The position numbers and the translations under genes are program-made. From the IMG/VR virus record IMGVR_UViG_3300006919_000363, positions 1 through 26,591 of that record: a DNA stretch of 26,591 nucleotides. One strand, 5' to 3'. This document shows, piece after piece, positions 4,666-26,152 of the stretch (its first letter is position 1; each line of letters starts with the position of its first letter). The notes below the pieces were generated by a model. That model was not told the DNA's origin. It did not search any database and was given only the letters and a program-made list of their open reading frames with translations. Source of the DNA: a virus.

Positions 4666-6090
4666 ATGGACATAAAAAAAGTAATTCAAAAGTATTGTAG
4701 AGACAATCAGACAATATCAGTAAGAAAATTAGCGGCAAAGATTTTAGAAGAGACGGATATTGCCGTCTCGTTTAATACAGTACGTAGACATATTAATAAA
4801 TGCAGAGCACAGGAGGATGTTGAAGAGACTCCAGAACCTGTTGTAAGAGATTTAGAATACGATAAAAGTTATGTGTACCAAGCGGATAAAGATTTGTACA
4901 TCTTCTTTATACCTGGATATAACAAGCCTTTATCTTTTGGGGGAGACAAAGTAAGAGAGTTAAAAAGAAGGTATAGTAATTGGGATGGTAGCCCTAATTC
5001 TATTAACCAAATATGTAGAGCCTTTAAGCTATCGCGTTCTTTATTTGATAAAATACGTCGCATCCTATCTTGGACTCATGACAGTGAACCATTTACCGAT
5101 GAGGAAATGGTTACTCGCAATGAAGAAGATTTGATGACCGAACTTGTACAAGGCAAAAAGTTTGCTTTAGAACAGAAGTTTGAAAAACAAAAACTTCAGC
5201 AGTTAGAGAAAGATGCACGTAAATGGCAAGAACTTAAACTAGGGGTACTTAATCCTTTTACAGATCATTTCGAGAGACACAAAGAAGCGCTAAAAGCTAC
5301 TCCTCAAATTAACTTTGAGAACAAAGAAGGTGAATACGCTTGTGTAATATCTCCATTTGATTTGCATTTTGGTAAGTATGGATGGGATAAAGAAGTAGGA
5401 GACACCTACAACAGACAAATCGCTGAAGAGCTTTTACTTAAGCACACAGAGGATTTGTTAGCAGAGATTAACCATTACCCTATTGAGAAATTTATCGTGC
5501 CTATAGGCAGCGATTATTTTCATTTTGACACAGTCCGAGGAACCACTACTAATGGAACCCCGCAAGATTGTGACGGTACGCTCGTTCAAATTATGTTTGA
5601 AGGCAGCTACCTAATGATTAAGTTCATTGACATGTTAAGACAGATTGCTGCAGTAGAAGTTCCTATGGCAGCAGGTAACCATGATAGAGTTCTTAGTAAC
5701 TCGTTATTACTCTTTTTGCAAGGGTACTACAGAGAAGCTAATGATGTTGAAGTTACGTCTAATTTAAAAATGCGTCAGTATGTTCAATACGGTAACACTG
5801 TAATGGGCTTTACGCATGGAGACGGACCTAAGATGAGTAACCTACCAGGTCTTATGGTAAACGAGTCAGGATTAACGTTCGGACCCGATACACATAAAGT
5901 TTGGTTTACAGGTCACTTGCATTTTGAAAAGGTTGTAGAACTTCAAAAAACAAAAGTCTATCAAATGCCCTCTTTGAGCGGTACAGATAGATGGCACCAT
6001 CATAATGGTTATAAATCTGTGCGAGGCATGTGTGCGTACTTAGTTACAAAAGATAAAGGTGTAAGACATAATATATTCTCTAATATATGA
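4666..6090 (+). CDS. Calcineurin-like metallophosphoesterase with N-terminal helix-turn-helix segments (474 aa)
   Basis: All the signature blocks of a two-metal phosphoesterase are present in order: D232-x-H234 (FDLHFGK), G-S-D283 (GSDYFHFD, with a Ser inserted where GD is usual), GNHD at 337-340, HGD at 384-386, and GHLH at 416-419. The enzyme should hydrolyse phosphodiester or phosphomonoester bonds using Mn or Fe. The N-terminal part carries two helix-turn-helix-like segments, residues about 1-46 (ISVRKLAAKIL, SFNTVRRHI) and 112-134 (SINQICRAFKLSRSLFDKI). A charged helical linker of about 60 residues follows. The combination suggests a DNA-directed phosphoesterase or nuclease, but the substrate is not readable. 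It sits between head and fibre genes. Its stop overlaps the next start as ATGA. Confidence 0.85.
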   Translation: MDIKKVIQKYCRDNQTISVRKLAAKILEETDIAVSFNTVRRHINKCRAQEDVEETPEPVVRDLEYDKSYVYQADKDLYIFFIPGYNKPLSFGGDKVRELKRRYSNWDGSPNSINQICRAFKLSRSLFDKIRRILSWTHDSEPFTDEEMVTRNEEDLMTELVQGKKFALEQKFEKQKLQQLEKDARKWQELKLGVLNPFTDHFERHKEALKATPQINFENKEGEYACVISPFDLHFGKYGWDKEVGDTYNRQIAEELLLKHTEDLLAEINHYPIEKFIVPIGSDYFHFDTVRGTTTNGTPQDCDGTLVQIMFEGSYLMIKFIDMLRQIAAVEVPMAAGNHDRVLSNSLLLFLQGYYREANDVEVTSNLKMRQYVQYGNTVMGFTHGDGPKMSNLPGLMVNESGLTFGPDTHKVWFTGHLHFEKVVELQKTKVYQMPSLSGTDRWHHHNGYKSVRGMCAYLVTKDKGVRHNIFSNI

Positions 6091-11647: not shown

Positions 11648-14600
11648 ATGGCAATAAAACTAGTCAGTGCGTTAAGCACACCGCAATTCATTCAGTTTCA
11701 GAATTCTTCTGGTCAGAACACCGGTAAGATAGAAACAAGTGGTAATGATCTTGTTATCAGCAATGCTGTCGGTAATGTACTTTTTGGAGACGGAGCTTCC
11801 GATATTTACATTGGTGACGGTGTAAACAGCGTGGATATTCTATTTGAACAAAGCGGTGCTATTCGTGGAGAGGGATCGGTAACCCTTACTTTAGGGTCAA
11901 GCAACACAACACTAAACGTGTACAACCCGCAGATGGCTAATGGTATGACACTTACGTCTACCATGACTATGGGTACTGGAGCAGTCATTGACTTCTTGCC
12001 AGACACTGGTGCAATCATCAACTTGGATGGTCAAACAATCCTAAAAAGAAACACGTTCAACGGTGGTATTACTCTAGGTCATGACGATGCTGTTATTATT
12101 GCTGGTGGTGATACTTATTCTGTTCTTGAAAGCAACATTAGCCTTGGCGCTGAAACTGTATTCCTAGGTGCTGAAGGTGGTGTTACAATCTATGCGTTCC
12201 CTAACAACGATACAGCTTGGTCAAACCGTAAAGAGTTTATCTTCTCTAACGATACTAACTTCTACCTAGACGGACGAGTATACCCAAGCGATCAGGCTAC
12301 AAACTATGTAGACTCAACACGCATTGCTAACTGGCAGACTGCTTATGGTTGGGGAAACCATGCTGGATTATACCTGGGGGCTACTGCTAAAGCAGCTGAC
12401 TCTAACTTGCTTGATGGTATTGATAGTAGCGCATTTTTAAGAAGTAATACAAGTGATACTTTTGGAAACGCTAACAGCGTACTCACTATAGAGGGAACTG
12501 TAAGAAGTAATAACAACTCAAATGGAAACGGTCCAAACTTCAATGTAAGTACTACCAATAAAGCCATAGAAGAATATGCTTATCGTGTAGACAGAAGTGG
12601 AACTGTTGCAGGTGGTATTCGCATAGACGGTAACATTAGTATTCCAGATTATATTTTTCATACTGGTGACACAAATACTTATATGCAGTTTCATGCTGCT
12701 GACCAGTGGCGTGTTGTTACTGGTGGTGGTGAAAGACTTGAGGTAAACAACTCACAAGTTACAGTAGCTAGTAATCTTGTTGTGGGTGGTGATACAACGA
12801 CTGGCAAGATTACAATTAGTAAACAATCACAACACGTTACTCAAGGCAGCATTTCTGCAAGTGACGCTCATTTGGATTTATACAACAACTGGGAATCTGA
12901 TACAGACCAAAAAGGTTCTATAATTACGTTTACTGATAATTACTATGGTAGTGGTACTTATAATAAAACTACCAGAGCAGCAATAAAAGGCGGTACTGAT
13001 ACTACGGGAAATACTGCGGATGGGTATTTAGAGTTTTACACAGATTCTGCGGGAGCTAACTCACCTAATATGGTGTTAAGGTTAGATAAAAATAAAAACG
13101 CATATTTTTCTGGTAGCATTAGTACCGCATCTAATGGTAGTTCTTCACAGTGGAATACAGCATATGGATGGGGCAATCACGCATCGGTTGGTTATTTAAC
13201 TACTTCAAGTGCAGCTTCAACATACGCTCCATTAGCTTCTCCAGCTTTAACTGGTACACCAACAGCACCTACTGCTGGATCCTCTACAAACACCACACAG
13301 ATCGCTACAACGGCTTTCGTGCAGACTGCGGTATCAAACCTTGTTGACTCTGCTCCAGGTGCGTTAAACACGCTTAATGAGCTTGCAGCTGCGTTAGGAG
13401 ACGATGCAAACTTCTCTACTACTATTACGAATAGTATTGCTACAAAGCTTCCTTTAGCTGGTGGAACTATTACAGGGAACGTTAAGTTTAATGATAATGT
13501 GGAGTTAAGGCTTGGTAGTGGCGCTGACCTTAAGGCATATCATTCAGGAACGCATACTTACTTTGATAACAACGTAGGAGATTTAATTTTAAGAAACTTA
13601 GCAGACGATAAAGACATTGTATTTCAATCGGATAATGGCTCTGGTGGTACTGCTACTTACATGTTCTTAGATGGTTCTCAGACTAATGTAAATTTCCAAA
13701 AAGACGCTATTTGGACTGATGGTAAAAAAGCGTTATTTGGAGGGTCGGGAGACCTACAGATTTATCACGATGGAAGTAATAGTTATCTAACAGACACTGG
13801 AACTGGCAACATGTATCTTAACGCTGCCGATAATATGTATTTCCAAGTTTACGCAACTGGAGAGCGTTGGATTACATTAACTAAAGACGCTGGTGTACAA
13901 TTATTTTATAATGATGTTGAAAAATTCCAAACTCAATCTACAGGTACAAAAACCTATGGAGTTCACAATATAGAATATAATGGAATTGGTCTTGATATAG
14001 AAAACAGTGCCTCCAGCGGTTCTGATACAGGAATTAGAATTAGAGGTGCAAGAAACGGTCAAGAATATGCTACAGATAATCTTACGTCATACATATTACT
14101 TTCAAACTTTGATGATAATACAACTCCTAATAACTATGATTTAGTTAAAATTGGGGCTGGGATGTATGATGCAAACTCTGATACTGGTTATTTTAGAGTA
14201 GAAACAAATAATGGTACGTCCTTAACTAAAGCTTTTGATATTGACAAGAACCAAGACGCTAAATTTTATGGCGATGTAGATTCTGACGGAAATATCACAG
14301 CTTCAAATCTTAACGTATCTAATTGGAATACAGCTTACAACTGGGGTAACCACGCCTCTGCGGGATACTCAACGGCTACGGGCGTTGCAAATAACGCAGA
14401 CAACTACGGATCATGGAATTTAAAAACCAATGATGTACAAAGAACAACAGTTGGTTCTGGTGGTGATCTAAACCTTGTTGCTGGTACTAACGTATCTCTT
14501 GGTTACTCTGCTGGCGGTACAGTCACTATTACGTCAACTGACACGAACACACAGCTTACTGATGCCCAGGTACGTGGTAAGATCAGCGGTACTGGATTGA

Positions 14601-17600
14601 TTAGCTACAATAGCTCAACTGGAGTTATATCTACAACTGCTAACAACTACAGCCTTCCAGCTGGTAGTTCAGCTACAAGAGGTGGATTTAAAATTGGTTA
14701 TGCTGAAAACGGAAAGAACTATCCAGTAGAGGTATCTTCAGAAAAAATGTATGTAAACGTCCCATGGACGGATACCAATACCGATACTGTTACTTCCGTA
14801 GGAGTTAGTGGTTCAGAGACTACTGGGACTATTACATTAGTAGGAGCTGGTGCTACTACGCTGTCTCAAAGCGGTCAGACTATTGAGATTAGATCAACGA
14901 ACACTACCTATACTGTTGGTGACGGTGGCTTGACTCAAAAGAACTTTACTACTACACTCAAGAATAAGCTTGATGGCATTGCTTCGGGTGCAGAAGTAAA
15001 TGTTCAATCAAATTGGAACGCTACTTCTGGGGATGCACTTATACTTAACAAGCCTACTATTCCAAGTGGAAGCCAACTTGTAAAAGTATATAATAATGTA
15101 GATTACATTGCAAGTGGTGGCACAACTGGTGATTATAGAGATAACTATGGTCCTGGTGTAACTGTTTATGAGGGTTATAGCGTAGGAGCTAATACACCAC
15201 ATAGTTACGACTCTACTGTTCAATTCATGTCTACGACTGGACAAGGTTTTGAGCTTTCTGCTGATTGGTTAAGTAATAGCACTACGCCTTTAAAAATTAG
15301 AAGTTTAAGAGACTGTTGTCAAGGATGGTCAACATGGAGAGACGTTGCTGTTGCAGAAGATGGGTTGTCTGGTACATTCTATTTTAACGACAGTATACAC
15401 GTTGGAAGTAAAATTACTCACTCTGGCGATACAAACACTTATGTGCAATTTGATGCTGATCGCATCAGATTAGTAGCTGGAGGCACAACCAAGTTTGATT
15501 CCAATAGCACATATGCAACTCAAACCTATGTAAACACAGCTGTATCAAATCTTGTTAGCTCTGCTCCAGCAGCACTTGACACCTTAAATGAATTGGCTGC
15601 GGCACTTGGTGATGATGCTAACTTTAGCACTACCACGACAACAGCTTTAGGTAATAGATTACGTATTGACACTGCCTCACAAGGTCTTACTTCTACGCAG
15701 AAATCTAATGGTCGTACAAACCTTGGATTGGGTACAGCAGCTACATCAGCTTCAACAGACTTTGTGTCTGTTTCTGGAGATACTATTAGCGGTAATATAG
15801 ATATTGTTCACGCTGCTAATGCGACTGGTCTTACCGTTAGGGTTACTGGAGGTGCAGTGCCTACAACGCCTCAATTTAAGGTTGGAAGAGATACATCTCA
15901 ATATTGGGGAGTATTTGTAGATGACGGAACAGCTAACTTAGTTCACAGACAAGATGAAATTGGAGGAGGTAGTAATCATCATACTCAGTTTCAGATATGG
16001 TCAAGTGGTGGCGGTACTCATTCTTGGAAGTGGCAAGTTGCTGATAATGCTGGTGCTAATGGTGCTGAAAAAATGAAGCTTACTGCTGATTCTGAGCTTA
16101 CTCTTGGTAGTGGTTCTAACACTATTACAAATACCAAAGTAGGTCAATGGGATACGGCTTACGGATGGGGAGATCATTCTACTGAGGGGTATTTAACAGC
16201 AGAAACATTTGGTTCATCTGATGTTATCATGTCTTTAAGCGGTGATGATGTTATTGCGGGAGAAAGTATAACATTAGCAGGAGGACTATCTTATAACTCC
16301 TCTACCAACACATTATCTCAGACTGATAACAACACTACGTATTCTGTAGGTGATGGTGGGCTTACTCAGAAAAACTTTACTACTACACTTAAAACCAAGC
16401 TAGATGGCATTGCCGCAAGTGCAAACAATTATACTCACCCTTCATATAATGGAGATGACTTTAGTGTAGATACAGGAGCTTTGACTGGTTTTAATGTCGT
16501 TTCAGATATTGATATCAATGTAACTACTGATGCTCTTGGTCATGTAACTGATGCTAATGGGTCTGTAGCAACAAGAGCATTGCAAAATCTAAACATACCT
16601 GATACAAGGGCTGGGGAAATAGCCCCAGACAGCTATTTAGATAAAGCCCTATCATTAGACTTTACAGACGAATTTGGAAGTTTAGGGTCTTGGTATAGTG
16701 GTCTTACATTAAAAGGATGGAGCGGTAGCTATGCTGCTTGGCAGCTAATATCAAACTCTGACAACAACACAGCAGATCAAAACTTATACTTTAGAAGTGG
16801 GTCTGGCGCTACTTGGGGAACAATGCATAAAGTTTACCACAGTGGTAACCTAACTGCTGGTACTAATGTAAGTATTAGTTCAGGGGGTGTTATTTCTTCT
16901 ACAGATACTAATACTACATACTCTGTAGGTGACGGGGGTTTAACGCAGAAAAACTTTACCACTACGCTCAAAACCAAGCTAGATGGTATTGAGGCATCTG
17001 CTGACGTTACTGATACAACTAATGTAGTAGCGGCTTTAACTGCCGGTACAAACGTTCAGATTGCAGCCAACGGTACCATCAGCGCAACAGATACAAATAC
17101 TACATACAGTGTTGGAGATGGTGGTCTTACGCAGAAGAACTTTACTACAACGCTTAAAACTAAACTTGATGGCATCGCTGCTGGTGCAGATGTTACTCCA
17201 TCTTGGGTTCCATCAACAGATCCAAGTTATGCAACACAAAGCTATGTAGGTACGCAAATATCAAATCTTGTAGCCTCAGCGCCTAGTACGCTTGATACGT
17301 TAAATGAGTTAGCTGCAGCTTTAGGAGATGATCCTAATTTTGCGACTACAATGAGCACTGCTCTTGGTAATAGATTGAGAGTAGATATTTCAACTCAGAA
17401 TCTTACTTCAACACAAAAATCAAACGGACGTACAAATTTAGGTTTAGGAACTGCAGCGACATTCGCTACGGGAGACTTTGCTACTTCTGCTCAAGGAACA
17501 CATGCTGATACTGCATTTAATTGGGGAGATCATGGCTTAGCAGGGTATGTTACTTCAAGTGGTGTTACAAGTGTTACTGTTGGAACTGGTTTGGATGTTG

Positions 17601-18310
17601 CTACTGGCACAACAACTCCAAATATTACTCTAGATCTTTCTGAGTTTACAGACATGACCGCTGCCATGGTAGGCACGGATGAGTTTATTGTTTTAGATGC
17701 TGGAGCAGAAAGAAGAAAGGCGGCTAACGAAATAAGCCTAAGTATTTTTAATGATGACTTAAATTATTTAGAAGACATCACTCCTGCTGCTCCTGCGGTA
17801 ACAGCTACAAATATTGTAGGTGAGACAATTGAAGTTGTTTTCTCTGCCTCTACTACAGCAGATATTGACTACTACCAAGTTTGGTCTTCTGTAGATGGCG
17901 GTTCTTATGGATTGATTGCACAAATTCCTGATACGGATTTTGCTTCATCTATGACAGTTATTGACGCTTCATTTAACGTAAGTGGTACTATTGCATATAG
18001 AGTGTACGCTGTTAAGAGTGGGGTTTATTCCTCACCTGGAACAGCTTCTAAAGCATTTACTGCACCAACTTTAGATGTGCTCAACATGTCTGTAGTTAGT
18101 TTAAATACTGCTTACTACATTCAATACGATTTGCCAGACTCTAGGTTTGTAGATCACATTGAGATATACATGGACTCGGAGGCTAGTGCTGCAAACTTAA
18201 CACGTACGGGAGCAACGTTAGTCTACAGCGGAAACAACACATCTTATATGTACGCTGTAGGAAGTAATAATAACTATCACCAATTCTGGGTTGAAGTTGT
18301 AGAATCATAA
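11648..18310 (+). CDS. Giant tail fibre protein with fibronectin-III-like C-terminus (2220 aa)
   Basis: At 6.7 kb this is a quarter of the window. The N-terminal start MAIKLVSALS matches the 618-aa fibre's MALKIVSGLS, suggesting a common docking segment. Shaft modules include five WNTAYGWGNHASAGY-like units, three NLVxSAPxxLxTLNELAAALGDD units, four VGDGGLTQKNFTTTLKxKLDGI units, and IYHDGSNSYLTDTGTGN and LRLGSGADLKAYHSGT units. All are known to me from marine phage and T4-like fibres. From about residue 2043 a fibronectin-III-like stretch begins (PAAPAVTATNIVGETIEVVF, DYYQVWSSVDGG, IAYRVYAVKSG). A second beta domain ends the protein. It is expected to be a long trimeric fibre binding host surface polymers. 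Codon use shifts from mainly CGN to mainly AGA arginines after about 12,420, hinting at mosaic origin. Confidence 0.88.
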   Translation: MAIKLVSALSTPQFIQFQNSSGQNTGKIETSGNDLVISNAVGNVLFGDGASDIYIGDGVNSVDILFEQSGAIRGEGSVTLTLGSSNTTLNVYNPQMANGMTLTSTMTMGTGAVIDFLPDTGAIINLDGQTILKRNTFNGGITLGHDDAVIIAGGDTYSVLESNISLGAETVFLGAEGGVTIYAFPNNDTAWSNRKEFIFSNDTNFYLDGRVYPSDQATNYVDSTRIANWQTAYGWGNHAGLYLGATAKAADSNLLDGIDSSAFLRSNTSDTFGNANSVLTIEGTVRSNNNSNGNGPNFNVSTTNKAIEEYAYRVDRSGTVAGGIRIDGNISIPDYIFHTGDTNTYMQFHAADQWRVVTGGGERLEVNNSQVTVASNLVVGGDTTTGKITISKQSQHVTQGSISASDAHLDLYNNWESDTDQKGSIITFTDNYYGSGTYNKTTRAAIKGGTDTTGNTADGYLEFYTDSAGANSPNMVLRLDKNKNAYFSGSISTASNGSSSQWNTAYGWGNHASVGYLTTSSAASTYAPLASPALTGTPTAPTAGSSTNTTQIATTAFVQTAVSNLVDSAPGALNTLNELAAALGDDANFSTTITNSIATKLPLAGGTITGNVKFNDNVELRLGSGADLKAYHSGTHTYFDNNVGDLILRNLADDKDIVFQSDNGSGGTATYMFLDGSQTNVNFQKDAIWTDGKKALFGGSGDLQIYHDGSNSYLTDTGTGNMYLNAADNMYFQVYATGERWITLTKDAGVQLFYNDVEKFQTQSTGTKTYGVHNIEYNGIGLDIENSASSGSDTGIRIRGARNGQEYATDNLTSYILLSNFDDNTTPNNYDLVKIGAGMYDANSDTGYFRVETNNGTSLTKAFDIDKNQDAKFYGDVDSDGNITASNLNVSNWNTAYNWGNHASAGYSTATGVANNADNYGSWNLKTNDVQRTTVGSGGDLNLVAGTNVSLGYSAGGTVTITSTDTNTQLTDAQVRGKISGTGLISYNSSTGVISTTANNYSLPAGSSATRGGFKIGYAENGKNYPVEVSSEKMYVNVPWTDTNTDTVTSVGVSGSETTGTITLVGAGATTLSQSGQTIEIRSTNTTYTVGDGGLTQKNFTTTLKNKLDGIASGAEVNVQSNWNATSGDALILNKPTIPSGSQLVKVYNNVDYIASGGTTGDYRDNYGPGVTVYEGYSVGANTPHSYDSTVQFMSTTGQGFELSADWLSNSTTPLKIRSLRDCCQGWSTWRDVAVAEDGLSGTFYFNDSIHVGSKITHSGDTNTYVQFDADRIRLVAGGTTKFDSNSTYATQTYVNTAVSNLVSSAPAALDTLNELAAALGDDANFSTTTTTALGNRLRIDTASQGLTSTQKSNGRTNLGLGTAATSASTDFVSVSGDTISGNIDIVHAANATGLTVRVTGGAVPTTPQFKVGRDTSQYWGVFVDDGTANLVHRQDEIGGGSNHHTQFQIWSSGGGTHSWKWQVADNAGANGAEKMKLTADSELTLGSGSNTITNTKVGQWDTAYGWGDHSTEGYLTAETFGSSDVIMSLSGDDVIAGESITLAGGLSYNSSTNTLSQTDNNTTYSVGDGGLTQKNFTTTLKTKLDGIAASANNYTHPSYNGDDFSVDTGALTGFNVVSDIDINVTTDALGHVTDANGSVATRALQNLNIPDTRAGEIAPDSYLDKALSLDFTDEFGSLGSWYSGLTLKGWSGSYAAWQLISNSDNNTADQNLYFRSGSGATWGTMHKVYHSGNLTAGTNVSISSGGVISSTDTNTTYSVGDGGLTQKNFTTTLKTKLDGIEASADVTDTTNVVAALTAGTNVQIAANGTISATDTNTTYSVGDGGLTQKNFTTTLKTKLDGIAAGADVTPSWVPSTDPSYATQSYVGTQISNLVASAPSTLDTLNELAAALGDDPNFATTMSTALGNRLRVDISTQNLTSTQKSNGRTNLGLGTAATFATGDFATSAQGTHADTAFNWGDHGLAGYVTSSGVTSVTVGTGLDVATGTTTPNITLDLSEFTDMTAAMVGTDEFIVLDAGAERRKAANEISLSIFNDDLNYLEDITPAAPAVTATNIVGETIEVVFSASTTADIDYYQVWSSVDGGSYGLIAQIPDTDFASSMTVIDASFNVSGTIAYRVYAVKSGVYSSPGTASKAFTAPTLDVLNMSVVSLNTAYYIQYDLPDSRFVDHIEIYMDSEASAANLTRTGATLVYSGNNTSYMYAVGSNNNYHQFWVEVVES
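13334..17350 (+). repeat. Three dispersed SNLVxSAPxxLxTLNELAAALGDD units
   Basis: Copies lie at 13334-13423, 15545-15634 and 17261-17350 (30 codons each). The last two are followed by a longer shared stretch, ALGNRLR then LTSTQKSNGRTNLGLGTAAT. Spacing is about 2.2 and 1.7 kb, so the fibre is built from large duplicated blocks rather than simple tandem repeats. Confidence 0.8.
14915..17176 (+). repeat. Four VGDGGLTQKNFTTTLKxKLDGI units with scrambled codons
   Basis: Copies lie at 14915-14980, 16346-16411, 16925-16990 and 17111-17176, each 22 codons. The protein is identical except for one position (N or T before KLDGI). The last two copies differ at 14 of 22 codons with no amino-acid change, including a TTA to CTT leucine switch. 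Confidence 0.88.
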
Positions 18311-20159: not shown

Positions 20160-22712
20160 ATGGCAACAATAACTGGATCTAAAAGACACTTAGACATTAA
20201 TAGTAGTACGGTAACTACTTCATCAAATATAGATATTGGTGCTAAGTTGTTTATTTCTACTACCGATACAAACACCACAAGTACTACTGCTTTAGTCCTT
20301 AACTCTAATGAGGTAGAACAACGTACTCTAGGTTCTAACGCTTTTACAAGCTATACAGACCATAGTACACAAGGTTATTTAACTACTGTAACATTTGGAG
20401 ACATTACTGGCACTCCTACAACGATATCCGGATACGGCATTACGGATGCTTTTGATGGAGCGTATGGTTCATTAAGTAGCATTCCTTCTACATTTGCGCC
20501 ATCTGCCCACAACCAAGCGTGGAGTACTATAACAGGAACTCCTACTACTATAAGCGGGTATGGTATTACAGATGCCTTTGATGGTGCTTATAGTTCATTA
20601 ACAGGTGTTCCTTCTTTAGGTACGGCAGCTGCTAGCGCTGCAACAGATTTTGTAGCTGTAAGTGGAGACACAATTACTGGCAACTTGTTGTTACAAGACA
20701 GCGTTGAGTTGATACTTGGTACAGATACAGATTTAAAAATCTATCACGATGGAACAAATGGTAGAATAGCAAATAACACTGGTCACCTTTACATTCAAAA
20801 TTTATCAGATGATAAAGATATTATCCTCAGAAGCGATGATGGTTCTGGTGGCTTAGAAACATACTTGAATATAGATGGGTCTCTCGGGCAGGTTAGCGTT
20901 CCAAAACCTTTTGTTGTAACTAGTAATGCGACTATTAGCGGAGAGCTGTATACAGGAGCTAATCTTACCGTTGGTGATGGAACTGATGACTCTAAAATTA
21001 TTATTAAAAACTTCAATGCCACATCTGAGCATATTGAGTTTTATCATGGTAGCACTCGTGTAGGTGAAATTGGTGCTGAAGACACTACTTGGTTGCGTAT
21101 TAATCAAGAAACTAACAAAAACATATACACTCCTAGATATATACGTGCTGACAATGGTTTCTTTGTAGATGGCACAACAAAAGGTATTAATGGTAGCGGT
21201 AACTTTATCGGAGGCACTATCACAGGTGCAAGTGATGCTAATGTTACAAACTGGGATGCCGCTTATACTCACTCTCAAGCTGCACATGCACCAAGTAATG
21301 CGGAAGCTAACGTACAATCAGATTGGAACGCTACAAGTGGTGATGCTTTAATCCTTAACAAACCTACTATTCCTACAAACAATAATCAGTTGACCAATGG
21401 TGCTGGATATATAACAGGTATTGCTGCTAACTCTGTAGGTATAACAGAACTAAATGTTTCGGATGGTACTTCTGGTCAAGTATTGACTACTGATGGTAAT
21501 GGAACGCTGTCTTTTACTACGGTATCTGCAAGTGGTTCTAACTACTACCTAGACGATATTACAAGAACTGCTAGTACAAACACTCTTGTGTTTAGTGTTA
21601 ATGGAACTACAGACCAGTCTTATACCTTTGGTGCTAACGCATTTACCGATACAGCTATCCCAGTAAGTGGAACAGACTTTGACCCAGTAGGAACAGACAA
21701 TTCTACAAACGTAACACTTGCTTCTGTAACAGGAAACTATCTAAGCATTAGTGGTCAAGAAATTACAGCAGGTACTGTTCCTATTTCTTTAGGTGGTACT
21801 GGAGCAACTACAGCATCGGCTGCTAGAACAAACCTAGGTGTTGACCCAGCGGGTACAGACAACTCTACAGATGTTTCACTTGTTACTACAGCTGCTAATT
21901 ACTTGACTATTAGTGGTCAGGCAATCACCCTTGCTAAGCCTAAGCTTAGTGAAATCAATGGTGGTGCTACAGCAGGTATTCTAACCACAAATACGGGTGG
22001 TGTTGTATCTGTTGACACAAGTACATACTTGACAGAAGTTGCGTTCTCAGACCTTATCTCAACACCAACCACCCTTTCTGGATATGGTATTACTGACGCT
22101 GATAACTATGGTTCTTGGAGTATACAAAATGGCGGAGGAACAGCTACATCAATTACAAGCGGTAAGCATATTAGATTTGATGGCGCTTCTATTAGCGGTT
22201 CGGGTACTTCAGGAGATCCATATGCTGTAGACTTATCATCATTAAATACTACTTACTCAGCTGGAACAGGTTTAACTTTAAGTGGTACAACATTTAGTGT
22301 TACAGCTGGAACATATGCTGCAGCATCTCACACGCATACACCTACTCAAGCAGGTCTTAGTAACTTGTCTAACAGCGGCAACAGCTTGGCTGGTACATTT
22401 ACCGCTACAGGGGATATCATTGCTTACTCAGATGTCCGTGTAAAAGAAAACATCAAAGACATTGATAACGCTTTAGACAAAGTCTCTAAATTGAGAGGTG
22501 TTGAATACAACAAGATTGGAAGTGATGAAAAGTCTATTGGTGTCATTGCTCAAGAGATTCAAAAGGTTCTTCCAGAAGTTGTAAGAGAAGATCAAGATGG
22601 AATGCTTGGTGTGTCTTACGGAAATATTACAGCAGTTCTTATTGAAGCGATTAAAGATCAGCAAAAGCAAATTGATGAACTAAAATCTATTATCGATGGC
22701 TTTACAAAGTAG
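20160..22712 (+). CDS. Tail fibre with C-terminal S74 intramolecular chaperone (850 aa)
   Basis: The N-terminal half is a fibre shaft with GYGITDAFDGAY units, LILGTDTDLKIYHDGTNG, and a QSDWNATSGDALILNKPTIP unit also present in the giant fibre. From residue 757 the classic S74 (endosialidase-type) chaperone begins: SDVRVKENIKDIDNAL, then GVEYNKIG, a SIGVIAQEIQKVLPEVV block and a terminal coil (IEAIKDQQKQIDELKSI). Ser757 and Lys762 sit five residues apart, as in the Ser911-Lys916 dyad of phage K1F endosialidase. This suggests trimerisation followed by self-cleavage before Ser757, releasing about 94 residues. It probably matures a receptor-binding fibre. Family knowledge supports the mechanism; cleavage here is inferred. 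Confidence 0.9.
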   Translation: MATITGSKRHLDINSSTVTTSSNIDIGAKLFISTTDTNTTSTTALVLNSNEVEQRTLGSNAFTSYTDHSTQGYLTTVTFGDITGTPTTISGYGITDAFDGAYGSLSSIPSTFAPSAHNQAWSTITGTPTTISGYGITDAFDGAYSSLTGVPSLGTAAASAATDFVAVSGDTITGNLLLQDSVELILGTDTDLKIYHDGTNGRIANNTGHLYIQNLSDDKDIILRSDDGSGGLETYLNIDGSLGQVSVPKPFVVTSNATISGELYTGANLTVGDGTDDSKIIIKNFNATSEHIEFYHGSTRVGEIGAEDTTWLRINQETNKNIYTPRYIRADNGFFVDGTTKGINGSGNFIGGTITGASDANVTNWDAAYTHSQAAHAPSNAEANVQSDWNATSGDALILNKPTIPTNNNQLTNGAGYITGIAANSVGITELNVSDGTSGQVLTTDGNGTLSFTTVSASGSNYYLDDITRTASTNTLVFSVNGTTDQSYTFGANAFTDTAIPVSGTDFDPVGTDNSTNVTLASVTGNYLSISGQEITAGTVPISLGGTGATTASAARTNLGVDPAGTDNSTDVSLVTTAANYLTISGQAITLAKPKLSEINGGATAGILTTNTGGVVSVDTSTYLTEVAFSDLISTPTTLSGYGITDADNYGSWSIQNGGGTATSITSGKHIRFDGASISGSGTSGDPYAVDLSSLNTTYSAGTGLTLSGTTFSVTAGTYAAASHTHTPTQAGLSNLSNSGNSLAGTFTATGDIIAYSDVRVKENIKDIDNALDKVSKLRGVEYNKIGSDEKSIGVIAQEIQKVLPEVVREDQDGMLGVSYGNITAVLIEAIKDQQKQIDELKSIIDGFTK
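20406..20591 (+). repeat. Two identical 20-residue fibre units with different codons
   Basis: TGTPTTISGYGITDAFDGAY is encoded at 20406-20465 and again at 20532-20591. All 20 residues agree, but 12 of 20 codons differ. One is a TCC to AGC serine switch that cannot occur by a single synonymous change. A degenerate third unit (STPTTLSGYGITDADNYG) lies near 22060. Confidence 0.9.
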
Positions 22713-24035: not shown

Positions 24036-24491
24036 ATGAAATTACGCGTAGTTAGATACAATTCTTCTGATGACTTTACACTTGGAATGCTTTTCGATGA
24101 AACAAACGGGAAGCATTTCTTGTGTTATACATTAGAGGATGAGCACCGAGATGAAAAGGTAATGCACGAGACTCGTATTCCTGCAGGTACATATAAGATT
24201 ACACTTCGTACTGTAGGAGGGTTTAATACTAGATACCAAGCAAAATACGGCGACATGCATAAAGGCATGTTATGGGTGAGAGATGTACCAGGATTTGAGT
24301 ACATATTAATTCACACAGGTAATACAGACGAGCACACTAGTGGGTGTTTGCTTGTAGGTAGTACCTCAGACATTAAAGGATTTGTTGGAGGGTCAGTAAA
24401 CGCTTATAAGAAGATTTACCCTGCAATAGCTAAAGCACTTGAGGATGGAGAAGAAGTCACAATTACATACGAAAACTACGACACAATCTGA
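24036..24491 (+). CDS. DUF5675-like protein, candidate endolysin (151 aa)
   Basis: The pattern matches the DUF5675 family: L-E-D then RIPAGTYKI (residues 47-55), W80-VRDVPGFEY, then ILIHTGNTDEHTSGCLL with His93, Ser102 and Cys104. The SGC context with an upstream His resembles the catalytic His/Cys arrangement of YkuD-type L,D-transpeptidases, so a cell-wall enzyme is plausible. In phages this family sits in lysis cassettes, and the holin and spanin-like genes here follow it directly. There is no signal peptide, so release would depend on the holin. Whether it cleaves or rearranges peptidoglycan is inferred. Confidence 0.75.
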   Translation: MKLRVVRYNSSDDFTLGMLFDETNGKHFLCYTLEDEHRDEKVMHETRIPAGTYKITLRTVGGFNTRYQAKYGDMHKGMLWVRDVPGFEYILIHTGNTDEHTSGCLLVGSTSDIKGFVGGSVNAYKKIYPAIAKALEDGEEVTITYENYDTI

Positions 24492-24528
24492 AACAAAAAG
24501 TAAGGTCCGTCGTATAATAGATAAAATT

Positions 24529-24750
24529 ATGAGTTTTAAAGATATTTTTAAGGATGACAATACGTATAACGAAAAAACCGTTATCGGATTTATGTCTTTT
24601 GCTGTTATGGTAATTGTTATGGTTGCTGATGTAATTAGCGGCATGGTTGGTAATGATCTTCCTATAAACGAGTTTACATATAACAGTTTTGTTATAGTAA
24701 CGTTAGGTAGTTTTGGTATCGCAGGATTAGAAAAATTTGCAAAGAAATGA
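24529..24750 (+). CDS. Two-TM holin-like protein (73 aa)
   Basis: I chose the ATG at 24529. Earlier in-frame starts back to 24439 lie inside the DUF5675-like gene and would add a basic, unstructured leader. The product has a charged N-terminus (MSFKDIFKDDNTYNEK) and a first hydrophobic segment of about 22 residues (VIGFMSFAVMVIVMVADVIS). A short loop (GNDLPINEFTYN) and a second hydrophobic segment (SFVIVTLGSFGIAGLEKFA) end at KK. Size and layout fit a class II-like holin. Similar proteins with the EKTVIGF and TLGSFGIAGLEKF motifs occur in Bacteroidota phages, as I recall. It overlaps the next gene as ATGA. Confidence 0.7.
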   Translation: MSFKDIFKDDNTYNEKTVIGFMSFAVMVIVMVADVISGMVGNDLPINEFTYNSFVIVTLGSFGIAGLEKFAKK

Positions 24751-24905
24751 TAAAAATTAAGAACGGCTGGAAAGCCACAAACAAGCAAGGAGACAAGGTA
24801 ATGGTTAAAGTGCGTTTTGGCATTGTAACTGTATTTGATCTTAACATGGACTTAGGAGCAAGACGCTACTCTGTTACATTATTTAATTACATCTTTAGAT
24901 TCTAA
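24747..24905 (+). CDS. Small basic protein in the lysis cassette (52 aa)
   Basis: This frame starts in an ATGA overlap with the holin-like gene and ends in a TAATG overlap with the spanin-like gene, filling the space exactly. It reads MIKIKNGWKATNKQGDKVMV and ends LFNYIFRF. It is basic with beta-like stretches (VMVKVRFGIVTVFDL) and aromatic residues at the end, without a clear membrane segment. No family recognised. Perfect fit between two coupled genes is the evidence that it is translated. A holin regulator is possible but unsupported. Confidence 0.55.
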   Translation: MIKIKNGWKATNKQGDKVMVKVRFGIVTVFDLNMDLGARRYSVTLFNYIFRF

Positions 24906-25228
24906 TGATTGTAGATAGACGTATACTAACTGCTGTTGTAGTACTGTTCTTATTTGGAGCGGGATACTTCATGGGCAGTTATACTACGCCTACTACTGTG
25001 GATATAGAATTCAACCAGAGAGTAATAGACTCTCTATCTGTAGAGATAGACAAGCTACATTACAGCATCGACAGTTACCAACATGACATTGACTCTATGC
25101 ACTTAGAGTCTATACGTGTAGATTCCCTTCTGTATAACATAAATGCTGAATACAATGAAAAAGCTACTGCTGTTGACTCTATGTCTCATGATGAGCTTGT
25201 CAGCTTTCTCGCAAAGCGATACAATTAA
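24905..25228 (+). CDS. Rz-like inner-membrane spanin candidate (107 aa)
   Basis: A single N-terminal membrane segment (residues about 6-24, ILTAVVVLFLFGAGYFMG) is followed by an 80-residue periplasmic-type region. This is rich in Asp, Ser, Glu and Leu in heptad-like spacing (VIDSLSVEIDKLHYSIDSYQ, DSMHLESIRVDSLL), so it should form a coiled coil. This is the Rz (i-spanin) layout, and the gene lies directly behind the holin. Its last 74 bases overlap the next gene in another frame, as Rz and Rz1 pairs often do. There are no cysteines. Confidence is moderate because spanins are identified by layout, not by sequence. Confidence 0.6.
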   Translation: MIVDRRILTAVVVLFLFGAGYFMGSYTTPTTVDIEFNQRVIDSLSVEIDKLHYSIDSYQHDIDSMHLESIRVDSLLYNINAEYNEKATAVDSMSHDELVSFLAKRYN

Positions 25229-25523
25229 TTTTGCGAAGATCGTAAAAGACTTACATCGACTTGATTACCTCGAGCAGGTACATCAAGCTGATAGCGTAAA
25301 AATTAGTATCTTTGCTAAACAGCTATCCTTAAAGGATTCCATCATTAAAGATCAAGGGCAACAAGTTCTGTTGTGCGACAGTATACAATCTGTGTATGTT
25401 CGTCAAACAGACGAGCTGCTAGAAGAGCAAAAGAAGTTAAAGCGAAAGGTTAAGTCTGCTAAGGCTGGACGTAACGTTGTTGGTGGAGCATCTGGGATAG
25501 CTATAATACTTTTGCTCTTATGA
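25155..25523 (+). CDS. Signal-peptide protein with C-terminal TM, second spanin candidate (122 aa)
   Basis: I chose the ATG at 25155, giving MKKLLLLTLCLMMSLSAFS before Gln20, a signal peptide typical of Bacteroidota with cleavage before Q. An upstream ATG at 25143 adds only MLNT. The mature part is helical and charged (KIVKDLHRLDYLEQVHQAD, DELLEEQKKLKRKVKSAKAG) and ends in a C-terminal hydrophobic segment (VVGGASGIAIILLLL) at the stop. An exported N-terminus with a C-terminal membrane anchor is the topology of unimolecular spanins. A lipobox cysteine is not evident, since Cys10 lacks the small residue before it. It overlaps the Rz-like gene by 74 bases and the next gene as ATGA. Confidence 0.6.
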   Translation: MKKLLLLTLCLMMSLSAFSQSDTINFAKIVKDLHRLDYLEQVHQADSVKISIFAKQLSLKDSIIKDQGQQVLLCDSIQSVYVRQTDELLEEQKKLKRKVKSAKAGRNVVGGASGIAIILLLL

Positions 25524-26152
25524 CTTTAAATGAGATTGTATATAACCTTGCAGACATCGTAGGCAAAACAGATGTACCACACTTCGTGGAGCGTCTGAAG
25601 TTTAACGTTATGTACTACCGTGCGTTGTTGATCCGTAGAGATCAAGAGCGTAATACACATTTACCTGAGCAGTTTATGCAGAGCTTCTGTATAGATATGG
25701 AAAAGGTAAATGCATCTGAGTGCTGTGATGTACAGATTGATTGTATTATCATGCGCAGTAAGAAAAAACTTCCTTCTCCTATCCGTCTTAAAAATGGCAG
25801 TCCATTTACTTATGTAGGTACGCTAGACAACTTAAAGTCTTATGCTCCCATGAGTGTTGGAGAACTTCCTTTTATAGGTCACAGTACTTTTACTGGTAAG
25901 GTTGCACGTTACTTTGTACAAAATGATTATTTGTATATTGTAAATGCTAAGCCAATAAAGGTTGTAGTAAAGGGAATATTTGAAGACCCTAGAGATTTAA
26001 AAGATTTTGATTGTGATGGAGATTGTTATGATGATGACAACTCGTTCCCAATTACAGCGGATATGGTACAAAGAATAACACAAGCATTATTAGCAGGAGA
26101 GTTACAAATTCTCTTACCGGATGATGGAGGAGAAGTAAAAGTAAATGAATAG
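25520..26152 (+). CDS. Probable crAss-type ring or tail-connector protein (210 aa)
   Basis: An N-terminal helical part (TLNEIVYNLADIVG, VERLKFNVMYYRALLIRRDQ) precedes beta-rich modules (SPIRLKNGSPFTYVGTLDN, VARYFVQNDYLYIVNAKPIK). An acidic linker (CDGDCYDDDNSFP) then leads to a final helix (DMVQRITQALLAGELQILLP). I recognise this layout, especially the acidic FPI-x-DMVxxIT ending, from conserved ring or connector proteins of crAss-like phages. They sit between portal and tail. It resembles in build the 224-aa protein at 2299. It overlaps the preceding gene as ATGA and the next by 8 bases. Function rests on family memory. Confidence 0.65.
   Translation: MTLNEIVYNLADIVGKTDVPHFVERLKFNVMYYRALLIRRDQERNTHLPEQFMQSFCIDMEKVNASECCDVQIDCIIMRSKKKLPSPIRLKNGSPFTYVGTLDNLKSYAPMSVGELPFIGHSTFTGKVARYFVQNDYLYIVNAKPIKVVVKGIFEDPRDLKDFDCDGDCYDDDNSFPITADMVQRITQALLAGELQILLPDDGGEVKVNE

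Follow-up and report, generated by a model that had tools for sequence, protein, structure and literature searches.

An overlapped gene pair in a lysis cassette of crAss-like context: a candidate spanin-type pair with a non-lipoprotein second subunit

Overview

The virus fragment analysed here at its full length of 26,591 bases (the window), from which most of the phage genome is absent, encodes two small overlapped genes, U (24905..25228, + strand) and P (25155..25523, + strand), downstream of genes for a candidate lysis peptidase and a holin-like protein. A spanin-type function of the U/P pair appears quite likely, and it is reasonably probable that the two products form a lysis pair with a non-lipoprotein second subunit, regardless of the membrane in which its tail resides. 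U is i-spanin-like as judged by profile (HMM) searches, an AlphaFold2 (AF2) model and a weak Rz-like PHROG match, and P combines, by HMM, AF2 and alignments, a signal peptidase I (SPI)-type signal peptide, a coiled coil and a C-terminal hydrophobic helix. Judged from its sequence, P resembles a two-component spanin's second subunit more closely than it does a unimolecular spanin (u-spanin), and it would belong to neither the o-spanin nor the u-spanin class as these are defined by lipoprotein anchor or lipobox.

Lysis cassette of the window

The candidate lysis peptidase is a DUF5675 protein encoded at 24036..24491 on the + strand (PF18925, E 2.6e-28). The residues HxGN....T.GC are invariant in an alignment of 8 such proteins, relatives in gut crAss phages are annotated as L,D-carboxypeptidase/transpeptidase, and the protein of the window presumably resembles an L,D-transpeptidase. 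It is followed at 24439..24750 (+) by a two-TM protein, judged holin-like by eye and conserved from about 24529 onwards, which matched no named family in Pfam, NCBIfam and PHROGs profile searches and which shares 79% (L084) and 81% (L088) identity over 72 aa with relatives that both adjoin DUF5675 genes. The 52-codon ORF at 24747..24905 (+) is kept in marine crAss-like relatives, and inspection by eye showed ORFs of the same type in 15 of the 16 listed loci (L002-L016). The proteins of this type measure 51-59 aa, with an alternating beta-like pattern and an aromatic or hydrophobic end, and their genes lie beside those for lysis even in marine crAss-like relatives devoid of the U/P pair. Downstream of P, a CrAss_Ring_2 tail ring protein (25520..26152, +; PF25702, E 4.7e-33) marks the crAss-like phage context. 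Elsewhere in the window, positions 11648-18310 and 20160-22712 encode long repetitive tail-fibre-like proteins, the C-terminal end of the latter presumably resembling a peptidase S74 chaperone.

Features of proteins U and P

By hydropathy and AF2, U carries a TM-type helix at its N-terminus (24917-24973) followed by a coiled coil, the model consisting of helices 5-23, 38-91 and 95-106 (pLDDT 81, two-sequence alignment). These are the features by which i-spanins are recognised, a predicted N-terminal TM segment and a periplasmic domain (hydropathy, AF2), adjoining a gene for a second subunit. The C-terminus of U holds a conserved motif, EK...x..MS..EL..F..RY (C-terminal core EK...I..MS..EL..FF). 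Neither U nor P received a confident name in the Pfam, NCBIfam and PHROGs profile searches, and a structural comparison of U with viral models returned nothing at E<=0.001. The Rz-like match of the window U (phrog_1327, E 0.027) is weak; at E<=0.05 an Rz-like PHROG was matched by 8 of the 12 U proteins scanned, being top-ranked in 4 with a best value of 1.2e-5 (L206), and by none of the other four (L105, L165, L167 and L171), and these weak matches are rivalled by other coiled-coil families.

The frame of P is open from 25143 (25143-25523, 126 aa) and in alignments its relatives begin at the ATG of position 25155 (122 aa), the overlap with U measuring 86 nt from the former start or 74 nt from the latter. 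Within 25155..25228 (+), the DNA of the conserved C-terminal motif of U doubles as code for the signal peptide of P. This signal peptide of 19 codons (25155..25211, +) is predicted as MKKLLLLTLCLMMSLSAFS|Q, with the Q codon at 25212-25214; beyond it, P continues as a single long helix with a hydrophobic C-terminus of 15-16 residues. The basic flank (KKLKRKVKSAKAGR) and the C-terminal hydrophobic helix occupy 25431..25520 (+), the helix running to the last residue, and Cys74 (25374..25376, +) is shared with the nearest relative, L002. The signal peptide and TM calls were based on motif, hydropathy and the AF2 model, which has helices 2-13 and 20-121 (mean pLDDT 71, pTM 0.31, two-sequence alignment) and, at this confidence, is all-helical with no beta-rich periplasmic domain.

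These results agree with most of what the sequence-only reading had proposed. The signal peptide cleaved at AFS|Q was confirmed by motif, hydropathy and model, and the C-terminal TM segment by hydropathy and model; counted from 25155, the gene overlaps the end of U, with its weak Rz-like match, by 74 nt. The lysis cassette, with its DUF5675 and holin-like genes, and the i-spanin-like partner, with its N-terminal TM-type helix and coiled coil, are likewise supported. Its remark that P has no clear lipobox also held.

No lipobox was found in the P of the window or of L002. The alignment of 12 P proteins contains no conserved Cys within the signal peptides, and Q20 is its only invariant column past the initiator Met (in L165 the aligned Q differs from the Q at the likely cleavage site). 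A Q-rule glutamine was assigned by motif in 24 of 25 P proteins, the exception being L167. According to PMC5837995, signal peptidase I of Bacteroidetes exposes a glutamine that becomes pyroglutamate, and five Q-rule proteins of unknown function are mentioned for Porphyromonas gingivalis phages in PMC10367356. P might still be lipidated through a non-standard lipobox, in which case the pair would be an overlapped spanin of the usual Rz/Rz1 type, distinguished by an additional hydrophobic tail at the C-terminus of P. A candidate of this kind, LWTC, occurs within the signal peptides of L191 and L195, and unusual lipoboxes do exist, AWAC having been verified in one spanin (PMC6139136). We regard lipidation as very unlikely, as L105, L171, L190 and L200 have no Cys before the Q while Q20 is invariant, and the only Cys ahead of the Q in the window P, Cys10 (LTLC), has just nine residues ahead of it, with Leu at -1.

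For a P that is not lipidated, the remaining anchor would be the C-terminal tail. In all 25 P proteins, many of which are closely related, the helix at the C-terminus has no more than one K/R after it, compared with 2-3 K/R after the TM segment in all 5 lipobox u-spanins measured, a set that is not independent. With at most one K/R after it, the tail is not a usual positive-inside inner-membrane anchor. The charge pattern of the tail, read from sequence, points to the outer membrane, and we hold insertion there to be an appreciable possibility, somewhat short of probable.

A hydrophobic C-terminus after Sec export normally acts as a stop-transfer segment in the inner membrane. This counts for an alternative in which P would be a type I inner-membrane protein (N-out, C-in) making no link to the outer membrane, and the outer-membrane subunit would be a phage lipoprotein or a host protein encoded elsewhere. 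An o-spanin encoded outside the window is possible, as the window is a 26.6 kb fragment. We nevertheless consider an inner-membrane P unlikely, though a serious alternative. The window contains no credible lipoprotein ORF, its single lipobox-like match lying antisense to a long tail gene; the basic residues of all 25 P proteins lie on the side opposite to that expected of a type I anchor; and the coil of the single-chain relatives described below would need to fold back as a hairpin. The core claim of our preferred explanation, a lysis pair with a non-lipoprotein second subunit, is shared by this alternative.

A periplasmic Cys in at least one subunit is reported for 507 of 528 two-component spanins (PMC6139136). 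Mature P contains Cys in 23 of 25 cases. As a signature of two-component spanins this residue was rejected, since all 5 lipobox u-spanins of the present set contain Cys too and it does not discriminate.

Evidence against a chance overlap

The nearest relative, L002, has the same overlapped pair, with identities of 85% for the ring protein, 52% for P and 41% for U. We scanned for a Q-rule or lipobox signal peptide followed by a hydrophilic middle and a C-terminal hydrophobic segment. In 2828 stop-to-stop frames the first scan gave 6 matches, each of them on the + strand: the window, L002, L047 and L042-L044, the last three being mutually identical proteins of the lipobox type. The same scan on 88 further loci gave 11 matches among 4052 frames, again all on the + strand. 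Overlapped pairs of an N-TM protein and a signal-peptide/C-TM protein, searched over 158 loci (1,750,765 nt), numbered ten on the + strand and zero on the other strand. These ten, among which no lipobox was found (0/10), lie in the window, L002, L047, L105, L106, L160, L167, L168, L169 and L170; eight are distinct, as L106 duplicates L105 and L169 duplicates L168. The topology scans are conservative, having missed L165 (found by eye) and the pair of Flavobacterium phage immuto (found by homology).

For the HMMs of U and P we used 18 pairs (the 15 family-search loci described below, L105, immuto and L160) and excluded the window and L002. Searched against 4740 ORFs, the P HMM placed the window at the top (1.4e-10), followed by L165 (2.1e-5) and L002 (1.4e-4), and the two best matches of the U HMM were L002 (9.6e-10) and the window (6.8e-9). 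Unrelated U matches on the + strand begin at 2.3e-4 (L086), and on the other strand the best values were 0.003 for U and 0.039 for P. The L086 candidate (U 2.3e-4, P 0.089) was rejected as a pair because what scored as U is an N-TM protein of unrelated kind and what scored as P is secreted and thioredoxin-like; its score indicates that unrelated N-TM coiled coils may reach about 2e-4 in the U HMM test. The ten-to-zero strand result, together with the recovery of U and P by HMMs built without the window and L002, argues that the overlapped pair is not a chance arrangement.

The pair follows different lysis genes. It comes after a DUF5675-holin block in the window, L002 and L105, and after a CHAP lysin in 6 of 7 CHAP loci (L164 being the L047 contig), L166 having no pair. 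The CHAP-linked pairs score weakly by HMM (L047, P 0.07 and U 0.29; L167, P 0.72 and U 1.5; L168, P unlisted and U 0.026), so L047, L167 and L168 have their architecture in common with the window pair, homology not being clear by HMM. A structural (tail) role, suggested by the ring genes downstream, was judged less likely because the pair accompanies lysins and holins in otherwise different contexts.

Distribution of the pair in Bacteroidota

The P of L105 matched a protein of the cultured Flavobacterium phage immuto (vB_FspM_immuto, NC_055915) with 58% identity over 60 residues. The corresponding immuto genes, gp187 and gp186, are overlapped, both annotated as hypothetical, and separated by two genes from the annotated holin and endolysin. 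The annotation of gp186 (L171:4947-5348) begins at an internal TTG at 4989, whereas a start at the ATG of position 4947 gives the protein a Q-rule signal peptide again. Only the L105 query found immuto in the phage-genome collection, where single queries with the P of the window, L165 and L184 returned nothing, the P of L002 reached merely E 8-10, and the U of the window gave unrelated genes (best E 0.03). Among viral contigs, the window P had no match, alignment A1 found only the contig of L002 and the L047 P only its own contig; genome contigs gave no matches in the single-member search.

The family and class names used for genome searches were inferred from the title of the central MAG. The first search of the Flavobacteriaceae-level family gave 9 of 397 genomes at E<=1e-3, among whose loci L184 (genome G040) contains the pair, and L182, L183 and L188 were inspected and dismissed as having none. 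With the P of L184 as query, 12 of the 397 genomes of this family matched at E<=1e-14 in 15 loci, a number that includes the query itself (L190 = L184) and several near-identical loci. An overlapped U lies upstream in 15 of 15, with overlaps of 89-155 nt by first start codon. A profile of 12 P members searched against the class matched 12 of 395 genomes at E<=1e-4 in 13 loci, consisting of seven full-length P with a signal peptide, five single longer proteins and one false match (L227, a 661-aa repeat protein, which was dropped). All seven full-length P overlap a U by 83-137 nt. Also dropped was a G362 match (E 4.9e-4) that fell within a frame of 404 aa, and the matches of L179 and L180 (E 0.003) are excluded from the counts. 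The P profile found 0 of 381 genomes in the class of a Parvibaculum MAG, a weak control in which no positive genome is known.

The pair of L209 and L212-L215 (genomes G040 and G075) is part of an island that also encodes hydrolases of the CHAP, amidase and M15 types, ATPase-like products and several TM proteins, of which one gave a sub-threshold peptidoglycan-binding match, and in G040 the island is followed by TssD (Hcp, E 4.4e-37) and VgrG-like genes.

Single-chain relatives

The five longer proteins of the class search (L223, L224, L225, L226 and L228, from four genomes of the Bacteroidia class) are single chains of 214-232 aa. They consist of an N-terminal TM segment, a long coil, a P-like basic flank and a C-terminal helix, and have no counterpart of the signal peptide of P. 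Their C-terminal halves score 23-31 bits with the P HMM in 5 of 5 cases. With the U HMM, the N-terminal half of L225 is matched clearly (26 bits), those of L226 and L224 reach 14 and 11 bits, and the proteins of L223 and L228 are not matched. A holin-like gene, recognised by eye, lies directly upstream in all five loci, and genes resembling cell-wall hydrolases, again by eye, lie close by at some loci. The single chains in which both halves are detected constitute Rosetta-Stone evidence for joint action of U and P, and their order implies a junction of the U C-terminus with the P N-terminus. A further protein, L108:6480-7091, directly after a DUF5675 gene, has 203 aa with hydrophobic ends and a long coil (U HMM 8.5e-4). 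It was excluded from the counts and, as far as its sequence goes, may be another single-chain form.

Lipobox u-spanins in comparable loci

Among the best 80 of at least 594 DUF5675 loci, the pair was detected in three (L105; L106, which duplicates L105; and L160, with about 5 kb between the pair and DUF5675) and a lipobox u-spanin in six (L084, L087, L088, L097, L098 and L101), the scans giving neither in the others, many of which are short pieces. Further lipobox u-spanins were found in L172, a genome contig with DUF5675, and in the ring-protein loci L042-L044. Their lipoboxes are LTSC, LSGC or LMSC, those of L097, L098 and L172 being LTSC or LMSC by eye. L084 and L088, whose holins are 79% and 81% identical to that of the window, carry the lipobox u-spanin in place of U/P, and no locus with both was found by the scans. 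In all 13 of the loci L003-L015 the place of the pair is taken by a different TM-segment protein of 148-150 aa, and no spanin was recognised there.

This alternation with lipobox u-spanins also bears on the possibility that the pair regulates or excludes, with P as a periplasmic antiholin or superinfection-exclusion protein and U as its membrane partner. The antiholin RI of T4 has a cleavable signal peptide (PMC8385771), and the pair is found near a holin. However, the geometry of the overlap and the single-chain relatives, as well as the alternation itself, suit spanins better, and two long coiled coils would be unnecessary for an antiholin. Such a regulatory role is improbable in our view. 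That P is a genuine u-spanin linking both membranes alone appears very unlikely: it does have hydrophobic segments at both ends, and lipobox u-spanins do occupy comparable cassettes, but P has no lipobox, its model is all-helical and a U overlaps it in every two-gene case inspected. For the same reasons (no lipoprotein anchor, the all-helical model and the overlapped U), the label 'u-spanin-like' was the part of the sequence-only reading that found no support, its cassette, partner, topology and missing lipobox having stood.

Unrelated to the pair, bajarodmic and Dulem virus records (H91-H94, 6.2-6.8 kb) are very small genomes with DUF5675 relatives. In crAssphage cr60_1 (L080:11524-22411) the lysis genes and their neighbours contain many in-frame stops under table 11, as expected of a recoded crAss phage.

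Relation to known spanins

Rz/Rz1 is the embedded form of the two-component spanin. The U/P pair resembles the overlapped form (P2 LysB/LysC type) in consisting of two small out-of-frame genes of which the second starts within the first, in the N-TM coiled coil of the first product, in the holin/lysin cassette and, although this point does not discriminate, in the Cys of most mature P proteins (23/25). It differs from this type in that P has no lipobox, an SPI-type cleavage with Q-rule and a C-terminal hydrophobic helix. Two-component spanins make a C-to-C contact, whereas the single chains make contact of the U C-terminus with the P N-terminus probable. With unimolecular spanins (T1 gp11; L042-L044, L084 and others here) P shares the signal sequence, the C-terminal hydrophobic helix and an occurrence in DUF5675 cassettes. 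Unlike P, the lipobox u-spanins of our set possess a lipobox, 2-3 K/R after the TM segment (5 measured) and no detected overlapping partner. T1 gp11-type u-spanins are described as beta-rich (PMC6139136), in contrast to the all-helical model of P.

The definitions used in that survey demand an outer-membrane lipoprotein for the two-component spanin and a lipobox for the u-spanin (PMC6139136), and in this survey and in PMC12596118, o- and u-spanins are alike defined by lipobox. The same text allows that other topologies or anchors are possible outside its criteria (PMC6139136). Bacteroides phage B124-14 and Croceibacter phages are entered as spanin-less in its lists (PMC6139136). In the 2025 survey, only unimolecular spanins are named for Bacteroidetes phages and o-spanin candidates without lipobox were removed (PMC12596118), in line with the view of the sequence-only reading that the arrangement is unusual for Bacteroidota. 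Annotated unimolecular spanins are on record for some phages of flavobacteria (PMC8776804). Spanins being recognised by lipobox, a lipid-free class, if real, would escape lipobox searches. Two-component spanins in Bacteroidota were suggested earlier by the pair of phage B40-8, which we take to infect Bacteroides. For this phage a two-component pair with widely separated genes was predicted (PMC6139136). No published description of the U/P arrangement was found among the matches listed in full-text literature, a body of text with subscription journals and preprints mostly outside its scope.

The pair recurs, apparently at times fused, in other Bacteroidota phages and prophage-like regions. With a homologous pair in immuto, a phage in culture, and with single-chain relatives known, the spanin question can be tested directly.

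Proposed mode of action

In the lysis pair as we picture it, U would be located in the inner membrane, and signal peptidase I would cut P and free it into the periplasm with an N-terminal pyroglutamate. The C-terminal motif of U may then meet the N-terminal part of P and produce an in-line rod of about 23 nm (69 + 86 helical residues x 0.15 nm), with the hydrophobic tail of P at its far end. This tail would enter the outer membrane as the distal anchor. Once the holin and the DUF5675 enzyme have cleared the peptidoglycan, the rod might oligomerise or collapse, and then disrupt or fuse the membranes as proposed for Rz/Rz1.

Generalised, this would amount to a lipid-free spanin class of Bacteroidota, in which a Sec/SPI-exported pyroglutamate coil with a C-terminal outer-membrane anchor is joined end-to-end with an inner-membrane coil. 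The single chain of some prophages would then be a unimolecular spanin in inverted orientation, held in the inner membrane by its N-terminus and in the outer membrane by its C-terminus. We offer this class as a tentative proposal, its likelihood falling moderately below even.

A protein of Cellulophaga phage phi14:2 (gp087, L073:3331-3909) is encoded after a GH19-type lysin and has an N-terminal TM segment and a match to PHROG 25644, of unknown function. Its C-terminal stretch resembles an outer-membrane beta-hairpin by eye, and it is possibly another non-lipoprotein spanin type.
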